In this document: positions 23,500 through 60,081 of the stretch, piece after piece
Layout of the letters: every line of letters begins with the position of its first letter
Numbering within the stretch: the stretch's first letter is position 1
DNA from: Alphaproteobacteria bacterium MarineAlpha9_Bin3
GTDB lineage: Bacteria; Pseudomonadota; Alphaproteobacteria; TMED109
Assembly (NCBI GenBank): GCA_002937655.1
Contig: PTKH01000001.1
Coordinates: 1 to 64,000 of the forward strand
Direction of reading: 5' to 3'
DNA length: 64,000 nt
Position numbers and translations under genes: made by a program
Notes under the pieces: generated by a model
The model's database searches: none
Seen by the model: the letters and a program-made list of their open reading frames with translations, nothing else
Told to the model about the DNA's origin: nothing

Positions 23500-24762
23500 A
23501 TGAGAAGAGTAGTTGTTACTGGTTTAGGACTAGTTACTCCTCTTGCAGGATCCGTTAATAAATCTTGGGATAAGCTAATAAGTGCTGAGTCTGGTATTAG
23601 TAAGATAGAAGGCTTTGATGTTGAGGATTTACCTGCAAAAATAGCTGGACATGTACCTAGTGCAGAACAAGAGGATGGTTTTGATCCTAACAGGTGTCTT
23701 GAATTAAAAGAGCAAAGAAAAGTTGATAGATTTATCTTATTTGCTATTGATGCTGCTGATCAAGCCATTAAAGATAGTAAATGGGAAGCAAAAAGTGACG
23801 AAGATTCATTCAGATCAGGAGTTTTAATAGGTTCTGGTATTGGAGGACTTTCTACTATTGAGCAAGCCACATTAGTTCTAAAAGAAAAAGGACCAAGAAG
23901 ATTAAGCCCTTTTTTCATCCCTTCATGTTTAATAAATTTAGCTTCTGGGCAAGTATCGATTAGAAATAAGTTTAAAGGTCCAAATTTATCGGTTGTTTCT
24001 GCTTGTTCTACTGGGGCTCATGCAATTGGAGATGCTACTAGATTAATTAGAGCTAATGAAGCAGATGTTATGGTGGCAGGAGGATCAGAGGCTGCTATTA
24101 CGCGTTTAGGTATTGGTGGTTTTGCTGCAGCAAGAGCTTTATCAACTAGTTATAATGAAAATCCTACATCTGCATCTCGACCTTGGGATGAAGGAAGAGA
24201 TGGATTTGTTATGGGTGAAGGAGCTGGCTGTGTAGTTTTAGAGGATTACGAGCATGCAAAATCTAGGGGAGCAAAAATTTATGCTGAAATATTAGGTTAT
24301 GGTTTATCTGCCGACGCTTATCATATTACTGCTCCTGCCGAAGATGGAGATGGTGGATATAGAGCTATGCAAGCTGCAATCATAAACGGAGGTTTAGTTA
24401 TAAATGAAATAAATTATATTAATGCTCATGGAACATCAACACCTTTAGGGGATGAAATAGAGTTAGGAGCTGTAAAAAAATTATTTCAAGAGAATATTTC
24501 AAATTTGTCTATCAGTTCTACAAAATCCTCTGTAGGGCATATGTTAGGCGCTGCTGGCGCCGTAGAAGCAATATTTTCTATACTTAGTGTATATAACGAT
24601 ATAATACCTCCTACGCTCAATTTAGAGAATCCTTGTAGCGGTGCTAATGGTATTGATTTGGTTCCTCTTAAGGCAAAAGAAAAAAAAGTTAATATGGCAT
24701 TATCTAATTCTTTTGGTTTTGGAGGTACAAATGCTTCTTTAATTGTAGGTAAGGTTAAATAA
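23500..24762 (+). CDS. fabF: beta-ketoacyl-ACP synthase II
   Basis: RRVVVTGLGLVTPLAG, SVVSACSTGAHAIGDA, NAHGTSTPLGD, SSVGHMLGAAGAVEA. Confidence 0.97.
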   Translation: MRRVVVTGLGLVTPLAGSVNKSWDKLISAESGISKIEGFDVEDLPAKIAGHVPSAEQEDGFDPNRCLELKEQRKVDRFILFAIDAADQAIKDSKWEAKSDEDSFRSGVLIGSGIGGLSTIEQATLVLKEKGPRRLSPFFIPSCLINLASGQVSIRNKFKGPNLSVVSACSTGAHAIGDATRLIRANEADVMVAGGSEAAITRLGIGGFAAARALSTSYNENPTSASRPWDEGRDGFVMGEGAGCVVLEDYEHAKSRGAKIYAEILGYGLSADAYHITAPAEDGDGGYRAMQAAIINGGLVINEINYINAHGTSTPLGDEIELGAVKKLFQENISNLSISSTKSSVGHMLGAAGAVEAIFSILSVYNDIIPPTLNLENPCSGANGIDLVPLKAKEKKVNMALSNSFGFGGTNASLIVGKVK

Positions 24763-24766
24763 TTTA

Positions 24767-25738
24767 ATTAAAAAGTTTAAGATAATAAAATATAAATTTT
24801 TAATAATTTCAATTATTGTATTTTTATGTATATTTTTGTTAAAATTAGTCCTTTTATATCCAAATGAATATTCTAATTTAAAGAAAAATATTACTATTGA
24901 AATACCTAAATCAAGTTCATTATTTGAAATTGTCAGTATTTTAGAAAATAGTAATATTATAAATAACAAATACGCCTTTATAGTTTATTCTTTTCTTTCT
25001 GGTAAATCAAAATCACTTAAGGCAGGAGAATATTTATTTAATTCAGAAACTACCAATAGAGATATTTTAGATAAGCTATATAAAAATTATGTAAAATTAT
25101 ATAAAATTATTATTCCTGAGTGTTATTCAAATAAACAAATTCATTCTTTGCTGCAAAAATATTTTCCCGATTTTAAAAGTCTTGATAACTATGAAGAAGG
25201 TGATTTTTTTCCCAGTACATACTTTATATCTAAAGATACCAAAATCAAAAATCTTTTAGAAATTATGAAGAATAAAGCTAATGAGGAATATAGCAAAATA
25301 TATGCAGAATATAAGGGGAAAACAAATAAAGTTCTTAATAGTCAAAAAGAAGTGCTTATTTTAGCATCAATAGTAGAAGCAGAAGCAAAATTAAGTAAAG
25401 AAAAACCTAAAATAGCCTCTGTATTTTTAAATCGATTAAAAATAAGGATGAAGATACAATCTGATCCAACAGTAATTTATGGAATAAATAAAACTGTTTA
25501 TAAAGAAAAACCATTACAAAAAAGTGATTTATTAATTAGCCACAAATGGAATACATATATAATTTATGGCTTGCCACCCACTCCAATATGTAATGTCGGT
25601 ATAGAATCATTTTATGCAGTATTGTACCCTGAAAAAAGTGAAAACCTTTATTTTGTGGCAGATGGCAATGGAGGTCATCTCTTTTCAGAAACTTATAAAG
25701 AACATTTAAAAAATATTAAAAGAGTATATAAAAAATAA
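24767..25738 (+). CDS. mltG: endolytic transglycosylase MltG (proposed ATT start; ORF track starts at TTG 24836, inside the TM anchor)
   Basis: LASIVEAEAKLSKEKPKIASVFLNRLKIRMKIQSDPTVIYG and YIIYGLPPTPICNVG; in-frame upstream codons from 24767 give IKKFKIIKYKFLIISIIVFLCIFLLKLVLLYP, the expected membrane anchor. Confidence 0.88.
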   Translation: MKKFKIIKYKFLIISIIVFLCIFLLKLVLLYPNEYSNLKKNITIEIPKSSSLFEIVSILENSNIINNKYAFIVYSFLSGKSKSLKAGEYLFNSETTNRDILDKLYKNYVKLYKIIIPECYSNKQIHSLLQKYFPDFKSLDNYEEGDFFPSTYFISKDTKIKNLLEIMKNKANEEYSKIYAEYKGKTNKVLNSQKEVLILASIVEAEAKLSKEKPKIASVFLNRLKIRMKIQSDPTVIYGINKTVYKEKPLQKSDLLISHKWNTYIIYGLPPTPICNVGIESFYAVLYPEKSENLYFVADGNGGHLFSETYKEHLKNIKRVYKK

Positions 25739-45562: not shown

Positions 45563-46906
45563 GTGATAAAGAAAGTTTTAATAGCTAATAGGGGTGAAAT
45601 AGCTCTAAGAATAATTAGGGCGTGTAAAGAATTGAATTTAAGAACTGTTGCGGTACATTCTACAGTAGATTCAAATGCAATGCATGTAAGGCTTGCTAAT
45701 GAAAGTGTTTGTATTGGCCCTCCTTCAGCTTCTAAAAGTTATTTAAATATTGCTGCAATTCTCTCGGCTGCAGAAGTAAGTGGGGCGGACGCAATACATC
45801 CTGGATATGGTTTTCTATCAGAGAATGCTAAATTTGCAGAAATAGTTAATGAACATGGTCTAATATTTATTGGACCTAAATCTGAGCATATTTCTGAAAT
45901 GGGAGATAAGGTATCTGCAAGAACTGCCATGCAAAAACTTGGAATTCCTCTTGTTCCAGGCTCAGATGGGGCTATTAAAGATTTAAAGGAGTTAAAAAAA
46001 GTAGCAAAAGAAGTTGGTTTTCCAATTTTAATTAAAGCTGCTTCAGGTGGAGGTGGTAAAGGGATGAAAGTAGCTGAAAGACCTGCGGATTTAGAAGAGG
46101 CCTGGAATTTAGCTCGTTCAGAAGCTAAATCTGGATTTGGGGATGATACTGTATATCTTGAGAGGTATTTAGCAAATCCTAGACATATAGAATTTCAACT
46201 TTTTGCGGATTCCTATGGAAATGTAGTACATTTTGGGGAGAGAGATTGTTCATTACAAAGAAGACACCAAAAAGTTTTAGAAGAAGCTCCTTCTCCTGCG
46301 CTTAAAAAAGAAGAAAGAGATAATATTAGTAAAATTATTGTAAAAGCTGTTAAAAAATTGGGCTATCTTGGAGCAGGAACCTTTGAAATGCTTTATGAAA
46401 ATGGAGAATTTTTTTTTATAGAAATGAATACCAGAATACAAGTTGAGCATCCTATAACTGAAATGATAACAGGTTTTGATTTAGTAAAAGAGCAGATTAA
46501 TGTAGCAAGTGGAAAAAAGCTCTCTATTAAGCAAAAAGATATAAATATTAAGGGGCATTCAATAGAATGCAGAATTAATTCTGAAGATCCAAACACTTTT
46601 ATACCTAATGCGGGTACTATAAATAATTATCATACACCTGGTGGCCTTGGAATTAGAATAGACTCCGCTTTATATTCTGGTTATAAGGTTCCTCCAAACT
46701 ATGACAGCTTAATCTCTAAATTGATTGTTTATGGTAAAAATAGAGAAGAAGCTATTTTAAAATTAAAGATAGCTTTAGAAGAGTATGTGATAGATGGTAT
46801 AGACACTACTTTATCTTTACATGATAAGATAATAAGAGAAGAAAAATTTATAACTGGTGATTATGATATTAGGTGGTTAGAAAATTTTTTAGATATTAAT
46901 GACTAA
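45563..46906 (+). CDS. accC: acetyl-CoA carboxylase biotin carboxylase subunit
   Basis: KVLIANRGEIALRIIRACKEL, DAIHPGYGFLSENA, IKAASGGGGKGMKV, EMNTRIQVEHPITEMITG. Confidence 0.98.
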   Translation: MIKKVLIANRGEIALRIIRACKELNLRTVAVHSTVDSNAMHVRLANESVCIGPPSASKSYLNIAAILSAAEVSGADAIHPGYGFLSENAKFAEIVNEHGLIFIGPKSEHISEMGDKVSARTAMQKLGIPLVPGSDGAIKDLKELKKVAKEVGFPILIKAASGGGGKGMKVAERPADLEEAWNLARSEAKSGFGDDTVYLERYLANPRHIEFQLFADSYGNVVHFGERDCSLQRRHQKVLEEAPSPALKKEERDNISKIIVKAVKKLGYLGAGTFEMLYENGEFFFIEMNTRIQVEHPITEMITGFDLVKEQINVASGKKLSIKQKDINIKGHSIECRINSEDPNTFIPNAGTINNYHTPGGLGIRIDSALYSGYKVPPNYDSLISKLIVYGKNREEAILKLKIALEEYVIDGIDTTLSLHDKIIREEKFITGDYDIRWLENFLDIND

Positions 46907-47573
46907 TAATCTTCCTCATAATTTTGCTAAAATAGAGTATAAAAATATATTAGATGCTTATCTCCATGGAATATTTCCCATGGCAGAAAGTTTAGATAGC
47001 TTAGATGTGTTTTGGGTTAAGCCTGTAAAAAGAGGAGTAATAGATCCATATAAAGTAAGTATCAGAAAAAAACTAAAAAGATTCATAAATACAAATCCAT
47101 TTCAAATTAAAGTCAATACTGACTTTATTGGAGTTATAGAAGGGTGTGCTGAAATTACTAATAATAGAGAAAATACTTGGATCAACCCTAGTATAAGAGA
47201 CGTTTTTATAGAGCTGCATTATAAAGGTTATGCTCATAGCATAGAATGTTACTCTAATAATATACTAGTTGGAGGATTATATGGAGTTGCGATAGGCGGA
47301 ATGTTTTTTGGTGAGAGTATGTTTAGTAGGAAGCCAAATGCAAGTAAAGTAGCTTTGTTACATTTGATAGATCGACTAAAAGTAGGAAACTTCATTTTGC
47401 TTGATACCCAATTTATAACTGATCATCTTAAAACATTGGGAGCCTTCGAAATTACTCAGGAAAAATTCATACTTATTTTAAAAAAAGCAATAAAAGTGAA
47501 TGCTGATTTTTATAAAATTGGTAATTCTGGGAATTTAGATATAAATTTATATCCTAAGTCTTCAAACTATTAA
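46899..47573 (+). CDS. aat: leucyl/phenylalanyl-tRNA-protein transferase
   Basis: GIFPMAES, WINPSIRDVFIELHYKGYAHSIECY, GGLYGVAIGGMFFGESMFSRKPNASKVALLHL, LLDTQFITDHLKTLGA. Confidence 0.96.
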   Translation: MTNNLPHNFAKIEYKNILDAYLHGIFPMAESLDSLDVFWVKPVKRGVIDPYKVSIRKKLKRFINTNPFQIKVNTDFIGVIEGCAEITNNRENTWINPSIRDVFIELHYKGYAHSIECYSNNILVGGLYGVAIGGMFFGESMFSRKPNASKVALLHLIDRLKVGNFILLDTQFITDHLKTLGAFEITQEKFILILKKAIKVNADFYKIGNSGNLDINLYPKSSNY

Positions 47574-47579
47574 ATAAAT

Positions 47580-47948
47580 TTAAAAGCAGTTTAACAGCTT
47601 AATATTATAAATAGAATGAGAAACTTGGGATAAACTTGTATTTTTAGATAAAATCCAACCTTTAAATATAAATTTATCTTTTTTCCTATCTTTTAATATG
47701 AGGTATGCAGCATAACTATTGTAATCTTGATTATCCTTAATACATTTTTTAATTAAAATATCTAAATTCTTAAATATTAAAGTACTATTTTTTGAAACTT
47801 CAATTACGTAATATTTACTAGAAATTTTATCGATAATTTTTAAAGAAGTTTTTAGATTTTCATTAGCTTTTATTTCAAAAGAAATAAATAAAAAAAATGA
47901 GAGAAGTATAATTAAATAATTAATTTTATTAAAAGAAAATATTAGAAT
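47580..47948 (-). CDS. DUF2155-like secreted protein, proposed ATT start (absent from ORF track)
   Basis: Manual translation: (I/M)LIFSFNKINYLIILLSFFLFISFEIKANENLKTSLKIIDKISSKYYVIEVSKNSTLIFKNLDILIKKCIKDNQDYNSYAAYLILKDRKKDKFIFKGWILSKNTSLSQVSHSIYNIKLLNCF*. Signal peptide plus DUF2155-like C-terminus (FKGWILSKNTSLSQVSHSIYNIKLLNC); lies between aat and NDUFA12. No ATG/GTG/TTG anywhere in this frame. Confidence 0.75.
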   Translation of the reverse strand: MLIFSFNKINYLIILLSFFLFISFEIKANENLKTSLKIIDKISSKYYVIEVSKNSTLIFKNLDILIKKCIKDNQDYNSYAAYLILKDRKKDKFIFKGWILSKNTSLSQVSHSIYNIKLLNCF

Positions 47949-48157
47949 TTTTTTGCTTCCAATGTTTTAATAATAACTTCAATAACTTGTTTAGGGTCTG
48001 CTCCCATTAAAATTGCATCCTCTAAAGCATCTTCTGTAATTTGATTGATTTCAATAATATTTTCATTCAAAATCTTAATTTTTTCTGAACATGATATGTT
48101 TTCATCATTGGAACCTTTCCAAATTTTTGGAAGTATATTTTTTTGATTATCGGTCAA
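47942..48157 (-). CDS. small conserved-looking protein of unknown function
   Basis: 71 aa, MTDNQKNILPKIWKGSNDENISCSEKIKILNENIIEINQITEDALEDAILMGADPKQVIEVIIKTLEAKKF; between NDUFA12 and DUF2155. Confidence 0.65.
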   Translation of the reverse strand: MTDNQKNILPKIWKGSNDENISCSEKIKILNENIIEINQITEDALEDAILMGADPKQVIEVIIKTLEAKKF

Positions 48158-48496
48158 TTATTTCTCTCTTTTATTAGGCGACCAGGAATTATAAGAAGAT
48201 GTTTCATTATTTATTTTTTCATTACTTTTATTTAAAATATAATTTATTCCTGTACTATTTGGTTTATGTTGAATTTGCCATTTCTTTTTGTTATCTTTTT
48301 TATTTGGAGTATCTTTAACTGTATGAGTAAGCCAAGCTTGCCATTCTGGTGGAACAGAGGACGCATCATTATTTTTAAAATATAAAACCCATCGCTTATT
48401 ATTTTTATTTATATAATAAATATTGCCAAAATTATCTTCACCTATTTTTTTACCAAATAATAATGTAGTAATAGTTGTTCCAATATTGTTTAACAT
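48158..48496 (-). CDS. NADH:ubiquinone oxidoreductase subunit NDUFA12 homologue
   Basis: FGKKIGEDNFGNIYYINKNNKRWVLYFKNNDASSVPPEWQAWLTHTVKDTP. Confidence 0.93.
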   Translation of the reverse strand: MLNNIGTTITTLLFGKKIGEDNFGNIYYINKNNKRWVLYFKNNDASSVPPEWQAWLTHTVKDTPNKKDNKKKWQIQHKPNSTGINYILNKSNEKINNETSSYNSWSPNKREK

Positions 48497-56083: not shown

Positions 56084-57214
56084 TTATAAGTTTAATTTTC
56101 GTGCTACTCCAGTTATAAAGCCAGAAAGTATATCATAAAAGTCTTTTACTTCAAGTAAGAAGCTATCATGACCTTTATCAGATTCTATTTCTATGTAGCT
56201 TACATCAGAAGCAGTTTTATTTAGAGCCTTTACTAGTGATTGACTTTCTGAACTAGGAAATAGCCAATCGCTTGTGAAGGATACTATAAGAAATTTACAT
56301 TTAGTTTTTTTGAATGCGTGATCTAGATTTCCTTTATATTTATTTGTCAAATCAAAATAATCCATTGCTCTAGTAATATATAAATAACTATTTGCATCAA
56401 ATCTATCTACAAATGATGTTCCTTGGTGTCTTAAATAGCTCTCTACTTGGAAGTCTGCATCAAAGCCCCAAGAGAGAACTTTACTTTGCATGTCTCTTCC
56501 AAATTTTTTTTGGAATGCTCCCTCAGATAAATAAGTTATATGTGCAATCATTCTTGCTACAGACAGCCCATGACGTGGTTTGTTTCCTTGATTGTAATAA
56601 TTACCTTTATGCCATTCTGGATCGTTCATTATAGCTTGTCTTCCTACTTCATGGAAAGCAATATTTTGAGCAGAGTGACGATATGAAGTTGCAATTGGAA
56701 TGGCAGAATATAGCATATTAGGATAACTGGCAGCCCATTCTAACACTTGCATGCCTCCCATAGACCCGCCAATAACTGAAAATAATTTTTTTATACTTAA
56801 ACTTTTAATTAATTCAAGTTGTAAGTTGACCATATCCTTTATAGTAAAGATTGGAAATTCCATGCCATAAGGTTTAGATGTAGCTGAATTAATAGAAGAA
56901 GGTCCCGTTGTTCCCATGCAACCTCCTAATACATTCGTGCAGATAATAAAATATTTATTCGTATCCAAAATTTTATTTGGCCCTACTAAATTATCCCACC
57001 AACCTTTTCTTTTAGTAATAGGATTCTTACCAGTTACAAATTGATCCCCTGTCAATGCGTGACATACTAATATAGCATTTGATTTTTCAGTATTTAGTTT
57101 ACCCCAGGTATTATATGCTAAAGTAGTTTTTTTTAATAAATGTCCACCTTCTAGTTGTAATTCTATAGGTCCTAAAGTCTTATTAAATATTTTTTTATTA
57201 TCAGTTTTATTAAT
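56084..57214 (-). CDS. metX: homoserine O-acetyltransferase (proposed ATT start; ORF track starts at TTG 57055)
   Basis: Upstream in-frame translation supplies the conserved N-terminus: INKTDNKKIFNKTLGPIELQLEGGHLLKKTTLAYNTWGKLNTEKSNAILVCHALTGDQFV; then IGGSMGGMQVLEWA, LYITRAMDYFDLT. 376 aa from ATT 57214. Confidence 0.93.
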   Translation of the reverse strand: MNKTDNKKIFNKTLGPIELQLEGGHLLKKTTLAYNTWGKLNTEKSNAILVCHALTGDQFVTGKNPITKRKGWWDNLVGPNKILDTNKYFIICTNVLGGCMGTTGPSSINSATSKPYGMEFPIFTIKDMVNLQLELIKSLSIKKLFSVIGGSMGGMQVLEWAASYPNMLYSAIPIATSYRHSAQNIAFHEVGRQAIMNDPEWHKGNYYNQGNKPRHGLSVARMIAHITYLSEGAFQKKFGRDMQSKVLSWGFDADFQVESYLRHQGTSFVDRFDANSYLYITRAMDYFDLTNKYKGNLDHAFKKTKCKFLIVSFTSDWLFPSSESQSLVKALNKTASDVSYIEIESDKGHDSFLLEVKDFYDILSGFITGVARKLNL

Positions 57215-57339
57215 TTTTAAATCTCTTCATTTTTTTAAAATATATAAATAATATTTACAATTATGACATGCTAATGGTTTTTTTCATATTAATAATATAT
57301 ATATAATTTATTATTATAAAAAATAATTTGGATGTAAGT

Positions 57340-58206: not shown

Positions 58207-59077
58207 GTTTGGTAAGGTTTCATTCATAGGTTTTGGTTTAATAAACTCATCTTTAGCTCATATATTTAAATTAAAAAAATTAGCTAATAAAACTTCTGCT
58301 TTTTCAAGACGAATAGAAACACGTGATAAGATTAGAAGCTTAAATATAGTTGATATAGTAAATGATGATATAGAGGACTCCGTAAAAGACTCAGATTTGA
58401 TAGTTTTAGGAGTTCCTGTTGGAGCTATGGAAAGTGTTATTAAGAAAATTTTACCTTATTTAAAAAAAGGAGTTATTATTACCGATGTAGGTTCTATAAA
58501 AAAGAAACTTGTTGATACTCTTGTACCATTACTTCCTAAAGATGTTTACTTTATTCCAGGGCATCCTATAGCAGGAACAGAAAAATCAGGTCCTGAGTCT
58601 GGCTTTCCTGAACTTTTTAACGGCAGGTGGTGTATACTTACTCCTTATTCAGATACTTCTCAAAAAGCCAGAGATAAAATAAAATTTATGTGGGAACAAG
58701 CAGGAATGAAAGTAGCAATAATGGATGCAGAATATCATGATCGAGTCTTAGCAATTACATCACATATTCCTCATTTAGTAGCATTTTCCATCGTAGGAAC
58801 AGTAACAGAATTAGAAGATCAGCTTAAAACAGAAGTCATAAAATATTCTGCTGGTGGGTTTAGAGATTTTACTAGAATAGCGGCGTCTGACCCTGTAATG
58901 TGGAGAGATGTATTTTTAAACAATAGTGATGCTGTTTTAGAAATGTTGGGCAGATTTATAGAAGATTTAACAGCTTTACAAAAAAGTATTAGATGGCAAG
59001 ATGGAGAATCTTTAGAGAAATTATTTATAAAGACTAGAGAGATTAGAAAAGGCATAATTTCTGAAGAGCAGGATTAA
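58199..59077 (+). CDS. tyrC: prephenate/arogenate dehydrogenase
   Basis: VSFIGFGLINSSLAHIFK, GVPVGAMESVIKKILPYLKKGVIITDVGSIKK, PGHPIAGTEKSGPESGFPELFNGRWCILTP. Confidence 0.95.
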   Translation: MDKFGKVSFIGFGLINSSLAHIFKLKKLANKTSAFSRRIETRDKIRSLNIVDIVNDDIEDSVKDSDLIVLGVPVGAMESVIKKILPYLKKGVIITDVGSIKKKLVDTLVPLLPKDVYFIPGHPIAGTEKSGPESGFPELFNGRWCILTPYSDTSQKARDKIKFMWEQAGMKVAIMDAEYHDRVLAITSHIPHLVAFSIVGTVTELEDQLKTEVIKYSAGGFRDFTRIAASDPVMWRDVFLNNSDAVLEMLGRFIEDLTALQKSIRWQDGESLEKLFIKTREIRKGIISEEQD

Positions 59078-60018
59078 TTAGGATTTAATATTTTTAAATT
59101 TGGTATATTTATTATTTTTATGCCCATTAAGCTTAGGTATCCATTTTGAATATTTATAGAGAATTTTGGAATATTACTAGAAGATATTTCTATTGCTTTA
59201 ATTATTATATTTAATGTTTCAAATAAGCTTTTAGTTATAACATTTTCATTTTTTAAAATCATTATTAATTTATCTAATTCATTGGTTTCTATAGATATAG
59301 AACTTTGTATATCTAAATTCTCATCTAAGCCTAGAAAAGCATTTCCTTTAATCAATATTTTGTCTATATTTAAGCTAAAATTATCAATATCTAAGCCTCC
59401 TTGGCTTGAAAACCAATCATAAAATTTATTAATATTGAAGTCTTTATAATTAATTAATTCTCCATTAATTAATAAATTTCTTATCGAATTTTTCTCCATA
59501 AAAGAGGGATAAAAAAATAATTCCTTAATTGTTATTGAATATTCTAGATTACTATTTTCTTGCTCTCTTATATAAATTTCAGGCTTACTTATTTCATTTA
59601 TATTTTTATCAATTATAACTTGAATTTTTTCAAAGTTAAATGAAACTCTTTTTTCGTTATTTTCATTCAAGACTATAGATCCTAAAATATCAGGAAAAAT
59701 AATAATGCTGTTATTCATGTGAGTAATATCAATTTTTTCAGAAGTTTTAATAAGTATATGTTTTATATTCCAAGGTTGATAAATTATATCTAAGCTCTTT
59801 AAGAATATGTCTGTATTATTAATTTTAATTTCTACGGATTTTAATTTATTTACAATTCTATATGGAAACCCTGATTTATCGACATTTTTCCATGAAAAAT
59901 TTATGTTATTTTCATGTAGTTGATTTTGAAATGTTATTAAATGTTTTTCTGTTAACTTTTCAATTTTAAAATAAAAAAAATAATATAAAATTATAAAAAA
60001 TATAAAAATAATCAACAT
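59074..60018 (-). CDS. DUF2125-like membrane-anchored protein
   Basis: N-terminal TM; FSWKNVDKSGFPYRIVNKLKSVEI characteristic of DUF2125; start could lie further upstream. Confidence 0.7.
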   Translation of the reverse strand: MLIIFIFFIILYYFFYFKIEKLTEKHLITFQNQLHENNINFSWKNVDKSGFPYRIVNKLKSVEIKINNTDIFLKSLDIIYQPWNIKHILIKTSEKIDITHMNNSIIIFPDILGSIVLNENNEKRVSFNFEKIQVIIDKNINEISKPEIYIREQENSNLEYSITIKELFFYPSFMEKNSIRNLLINGELINYKDFNINKFYDWFSSQGGLDIDNFSLNIDKILIKGNAFLGLDENLDIQSSISIETNELDKLIMILKNENVITKSLFETLNIIIKAIEISSSNIPKFSINIQNGYLSLMGIKIINIPNLKILNPN

Positions 60019-60081
60019 AAAATAAATAAATTTAAGTCCAGGTGCTCTATTATTTTTTTTAATATTGATTTTTATCTTCCG

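Follow-up and report, generated by a model that had tools for sequence, protein, structure and literature searches.

The window, a stretch of 64,000 nucleotides from Alphaproteobacteria bacterium MarineAlpha9_Bin3 (contig PTKH01000001.1), carries on its minus strand a DUF2155 gene whose start is overlapped by an ORF of 71 amino acids (Table 1). The frame (positions 47580 to 47966) is open for 128 codons and contains no ATG, GTG, or TTG; as the initial annotation had claimed, it escapes ORF callers and is absent from the standard ORF list. The product matches profile PF09923 with an E value of 1.2e-16 and 61.1 bits (cut-off of 27) over profile positions 2 to 89 of 89, and this score above the curated cut-off places it in the DUF2155 family. 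The annotated order of a signal peptide followed by a DUF2155-like domain also agrees with the data. The N-terminus is hydrophobic in the window's species and in four congeners (best 14-residue Kyte-Doolittle mean, 1.9 to 3.1), and the AlphaFold model (pLDDT, 82.6) has a helix at residues 6 to 25 followed by a beta domain; both features predict export. Alternative frames over this region are interrupted by stops, leaving the hydrophobic N-terminus in the DUF2155 frame only. Cleavage probably follows the residues IKA. A comparison of the model with the PDB returned nothing at an E value of <0.001 and, therefore, no hint of function.

Table 1. Features of the DUF2155 locus and of other genes with candidate near-cognate starts (window positions, or contig and positions in the window's genome, G000)
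Feature	Location	Strand	Remarks
DUF2155 coding sequence	47583..47948	-	122 codons from proposed ATT; stop TAA at 47580-47582
Proposed start codon ATT (ATA in G001 and G005)	47946..47948	-	Alignment; near-cognate column shared between species
SD-like GGAAG	47956..47960	-	Sequence; 7-nt spacer to ATT; weak
A7 run	47948..47954	-	Just upstream of and overlapping the proposed start codon
Signal-peptide-like N-terminus (ILIFSFNKINYLIILLSFFLFISFEIK)	47868..47948	-	27 codons; hydropathy and model
71-aa ORF, TTG start	47942..48157	-	Directly upstream; stop overlaps DUF2155 start (ATTCTAA)
NDUFA12 gene	48158..48496	-	PF05071, E 1e-19; beyond 71-aa ORF
aat (leucyl/phenylalanyl-tRNA-protein transferase)	46899..47573	+	PF03588, E 1.6e-62; convergent neighbour
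mltG-like gene	24749-25738	+	ATT after AAGG, also in G003; no canonical start before transmembrane segment
Frame with conserved N-terminus	59074-60081	-	ATC here, ATT in G003, after (A)GGA; no earlier canonical start
mfd	G000 C5:6415-9879		Conserved ATT start
hisC	G000 C4:19168-20265		Conserved ATT start
miaA	G000 C6:23835-24788		Conserved ATT start

The gene had been placed between aat and NDUFA12. The first of these is indeed the adjoining, convergent neighbor, but NDUFA12 is not the immediate upstream gene, because the 71-aa ORF sits between. This ORF is kept within the genus and the family, and searches with Pfam and NCBIfam profiles assigned it to no family above cut-off. Its TAA stop is contained in the junction sequence ATT CTA A. 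In several other alphaproteobacteria (loci L018 and L021), an mlaD-like gene adjoins DUF2155 at this place.

Conservation of the DUF2155 frame

Sixty related genomes were searched. The window's genus belongs to the TMED109-type marine Alphaproteobacteria and includes MAGs such as Alphaproteobacteria bacterium TMED109. Four congeners (G006, G003, G001, and G005) likewise carry the gene without a usable canonical start, the one early TTG of G006 falling midway through the hydrophobic core. The distance from AT(T/A) to the stop is exactly 122 codons in all five species, and the missing start, the position of AT(T/A), and this length are shared with the four other species beyond what chance would give. 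Pairwise dN/dS values among the five are 0.14 to 0.27 for the whole gene and 0.05 to 0.26 for the mature part, and the Cys and Trp residues are invariant.

Neither decay nor a frameshift was found in these relatives. A non-canonical start and a fast-evolving signal peptide are what a gene decaying after the loss of its start, with no protein made, might display, but the equal lengths, the selection on the mature part, the invariant residues, and five reading frames undisturbed by stops or frame-breaking indels make this extremely improbable. The chance that an ordinary start was erased by an assembly or sequencing error is just as slight: a homopolymer lies at the start and the source is a MAG, but the five species come from separate assemblies, several of them with different sequencing-project accessions, and none has a usable ordinary start at either length of the A-run. 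The missing start is thus not explained by an indel in the run.

A fifth congener, G002, has an ATG, which visual inspection places one codon ahead of the homologous ATA (AAT ATG ATA CTA AAA versus AAA AAA ATA CTG AAA), and the search of the sixth, G004, whose genome is 61% complete, gave no match. In other genera, most DUF2155 genes have ATG at the start and two have GTG. The five species probably descend from an ancestor that had already lost an earlier AUG.

Position and use of the candidate start codon

Signal-peptide codons evolve fast (dN/dS of about 0.2 to 1.7), so conservation of amino acids alone cannot fix the start, but three independent lines of evidence point to AT(T/A), the first being the constant 122 codons between it and the stop. 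The A-run with its preceding base is one base longer in G000, G006, and G005 than in G003 and G001. This is the only interspecies indel near the start; it displaces the stop of the 71-aa ORF by a few bases and leaves the DUF2155 frame, which is never broken downstream, unchanged, which places the start at or after the A-run. In G001, an in-frame TGA lies only four codons ahead of codon 0, just before AAG AAA AAA ATA CTG, so that translation there must begin at or after these codons. Codon 0 reads ATT, ATT, ATT, ATA, and ATA in the five species and, in a scan from codon -4 to +44, is the one position ahead of the mature domain that holds a near-cognate codon in all five. In each of them, a signal-peptide-like sequence of about 27 residues begins there. 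ATT and GGAAG, with their 7-nt spacer, are located as first annotated; the A7 run had been assigned to 47949-47955, one base off its actual position (Table 1).

The ribosome-binding context is modest. A GGA core is also present in G006 and G003, with GAAAG instead in G001 and G005, and in G000 and G003 this SD-like GGA, a weak, three-base core, lies 8 to 9 nt before codon 0. The fetched DNA did not include the 16S tail, and the anti-SD sequence was taken as standard, an assumption that agrees with the peak of G seen at positions -8 to -12 relative to ordinary starts. The locus nevertheless combines two features of near-cognate (AUH) start genes, namely, no canonical start and a conserved AUH position in a ribosome-binding context. 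The comparison supports AT(T/A) at codon 0 as the putative DUF2155 start, in line with the annotated reading of a near-cognate ATT start.

Two other products of the junction were considered. Slippage of the ribosome or RNA polymerase on A7/A8 could yield a protein begun at an upstream TTG or a fusion with the 71-aa ORF: the run sits right at the ORF junction, a slip of +1 A (or -1 by the ribosome) in G000 would bring TTG GAA GCA AAA AAA ATT CTA into frame, and a genuine poly-A frameshift exists in the same genus, in trmB, with a conserved A9/A10 run and the same slip in seven genomes. However, the slip needed at DUF2155 varies: G000, G006, and G005 would require +1 A, whereas G003 and G001 would require -1 A (or +2), and the ORFs do not keep the constant frame relation across species of a programmed frameshift. 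In addition, the upstream codon is TTG in three species but CTG in G001 and G005, the signal peptide would become internal in a fused product, and other genera have two separate genes, mostly with ATG at the DUF2155 start. Given that the required slip differs among species, slippage or fusion was not adopted as the main explanation, and we consider it improbable. Initiation at another nearby non-AUG codon is slightly less probable still. The codon after codon 0 is CTG in G003, G001, and G005, and a second ATT lies five codons upstream in G000 and G006 (47961-47963 in the window), but the former is CTA in G000 and G006, while the latter is replaced by CAT or TGG in G003 and falls beyond a stop in G001; AT(T/A) alone is common to the five species.

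The locus is thus very probably functional, encoding a periplasmic DUF2155 protein that is translated from a near-cognate AUU (AUA in two sister species). A normal initiator tRNA could read AUU or AUA as methionine by pairing at two positions, aided by the weak SD-like GGAAG 7 nt ahead and by the unstructured A-run. Ribosomes finishing the overlapping 71-aa ORF may also reinitiate at AUUCUAA, coupling the two genes. The weak start might have been retained because a small amount of protein suffices or because levels of IF3 regulate its use.

The initiator-tRNA anticodon stem GGGCTCATAACCC is absent from all 41 related genomes. An initiator-tRNA-type anticodon stem, AGGCTCATAACCT, with an A-U first pair, is present in 22 of the 41, including G001, and was not found in the sequence of the window's own genome; its spread across the class indicates nothing special to the genus. 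An initiator tRNA with this class-typical stem, as found in G001, would be the likely decoder of AUU and AUA. Alignment of the genome's IF3 with a solved IF3 revealed no obvious loss of fidelity residues. Such an ordinary-looking IF3 would be expected to hold DUF2155 expression low, by analogy with work on E. coli and Streptomyces (PMC2268962; PMC5472188).

Candidate near-cognate starts elsewhere in the lineage

Comparison of 1.22 Mb of the window's genome with 1.46 Mb of G003 (1118 orthologous frames) revealed about nine further genes with a conserved N-terminus not preceded by a canonical start in at least one of the two genomes, with an SD-like motif and AT(T/A/C). These are infC (AUA), mfd, hisC, miaA, a PBP, mltG, a PSRP kinase, a lipoprotein, and an unnamed gene. 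For infC, whose near-cognate start is a known oddity and serves as a positive control, ATA follows AGGAG in the window's genome and is found across the genus and family, and most other readable class members have an AUH-type codon.

DNA of additional relatives settled three cases. For mfd, seven genomes from three genera share ATT CTT and, two codons earlier, an in-frame stop. In hisC, TGGAG is followed at nearly fixed spacing by ATT (ATC in G004) in seven congeners; ATT is also present in G007, so that AUU/AUC is kept in eight genomes, and in G001 an in-frame TAG separates the SD from ATT. For miaA, four congeners have ATT, and G007 has ATG. The PBP, mltG, the frame at 59074-60081, the small lipoprotein, and the PSRP-type kinase follow the same pattern in two genomes. 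An upstream TTG is also present for the kinase in the window's genome, and the frame at 59074-60081 has an ATG downstream of its conserved N-terminus there.

Two genes differ between the genomes. Near the N-terminus of metX (homoserine O-acetyltransferase; window positions 56084-57226, minus strand) there is no canonical start; in G003, an ATG follows the homologous ATT after a few codons. A gmhB/HAD-type phosphatase gene (G000 C2:3917-4546) has an in-frame ATG in G003; the G000 sequence differs by 12 bases, so that its sole candidate starts are ATA/ATT after AAGGA.

Two candidates were removed. The first, prfB, has the standard RF2 frameshift. The second, trmB (G000 C8:6306-6926, outside the window), resembles DUF2155 in its junction homopolymer and in a main frame without an in-frame canonical start, but differs in having an ATG-started N-terminus (MYKTLHGRRIGRKLGKKK) in another frame, which joins the main frame across the conserved A9/A10 run by a -1 ribosomal frameshift or +1 A slippage. 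This slip, counted by eye, is shared by seven genomes belonging to two genera (also at loci L211, L213 to L215, L218, and L222).

Across the ten genes (infC included), an SD-like match of at least 3 bases lies 5 to 12 nt before AT(T/A/C) in 10 of 10 per genome, whereas random internal windows give an expectation of 3.0 (P of about 4e-6); the length of the search window was set by the author for each gene and the AUH codon was picked within it, in the null likewise. Matches of at least 4 bases were found in 6 and 7 of the 10, against 1.4 expected. A codon-agnostic start caller applied genome-wide, which was noisy and often took the codon before ATG, detected no enrichment of ATT/ATA (ratios of 0.95 and 0.76), indicating that near-cognate starts are a small minority.

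These genes raise the possibility of a relaxed start rule in this family of TMED109-type marine Alphaproteobacteria, under which about 1% of genes, including mfd, hisC, and miaA, would be stably started at AUU, AUA, or AUC, kept over genus-level and partly family-level divergence, and either expressed at low levels or tuned by IF3; we regard the arguments for and against this rule as evenly balanced. If true, near-cognate-start genes would be unusually abundant here for a bacterial lineage. AUU-type starts are usually regarded as one-gene exceptions, whereas this AT-rich (29% GC) marine lineage has about ten candidates. Callers limited to ATG, GTG, and TTG drop DUF2155 here and would shorten the others, mfd by some 70 residues or more and hisC by about 21 to 37. 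The genes also form a natural set for asking whether such starts reflect drift in genes of low expression or an IF3-controlled set.

Comparison with known systems

DUF2155 appears to be a new and well-conserved case of a near-cognate start. Single cases are known (infC, pcnB, and pncA of Borrelia); a limited literature search found no description of a lineage in which about ten genes make recurrent, conserved use of them, and the new part would be this recurrence and conservation. As proposed for DUF2155, infC starts at a near-cognate AUH that follows an SD and is retained across distant relatives. The start codon of infC serves autoregulation of IF3, whereas we know of no loop of this type for DUF2155 and expect none.

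The infC gene uses AUU/AUC, and IF3 represses non-canonical starts (PMC5472188); the near-cognate start of infC has proteomic support in Xanthomonas (PMC5559785). Borrelia burgdorferi pncA (BBE22) has an experimentally supported AUU start and is truncated in databases (PMC13398362). That is one gene in one organism, whereas the present genes number about ten in several species and their starts are deduced from genome comparison. In Streptomyces, the GTC start of sigR is repressed by IF3, which tunes expression relative to the operon neighbor (PMC5472188); sigR, too, has a non-canonical start, but a GTC with experimental proof, whereas AUU/AUA is the predicted start of DUF2155. As in other Alphaproteobacteria with PF09923, the gene described here encodes a signal peptide and a DUF2155 domain and lies near aat and NDUFA12. 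Those genes differ in having ATG, GTG, or TTG in frame and, in several cases, an mlaD-like gene immediately upstream, where this lineage has the 71-aa ORF.
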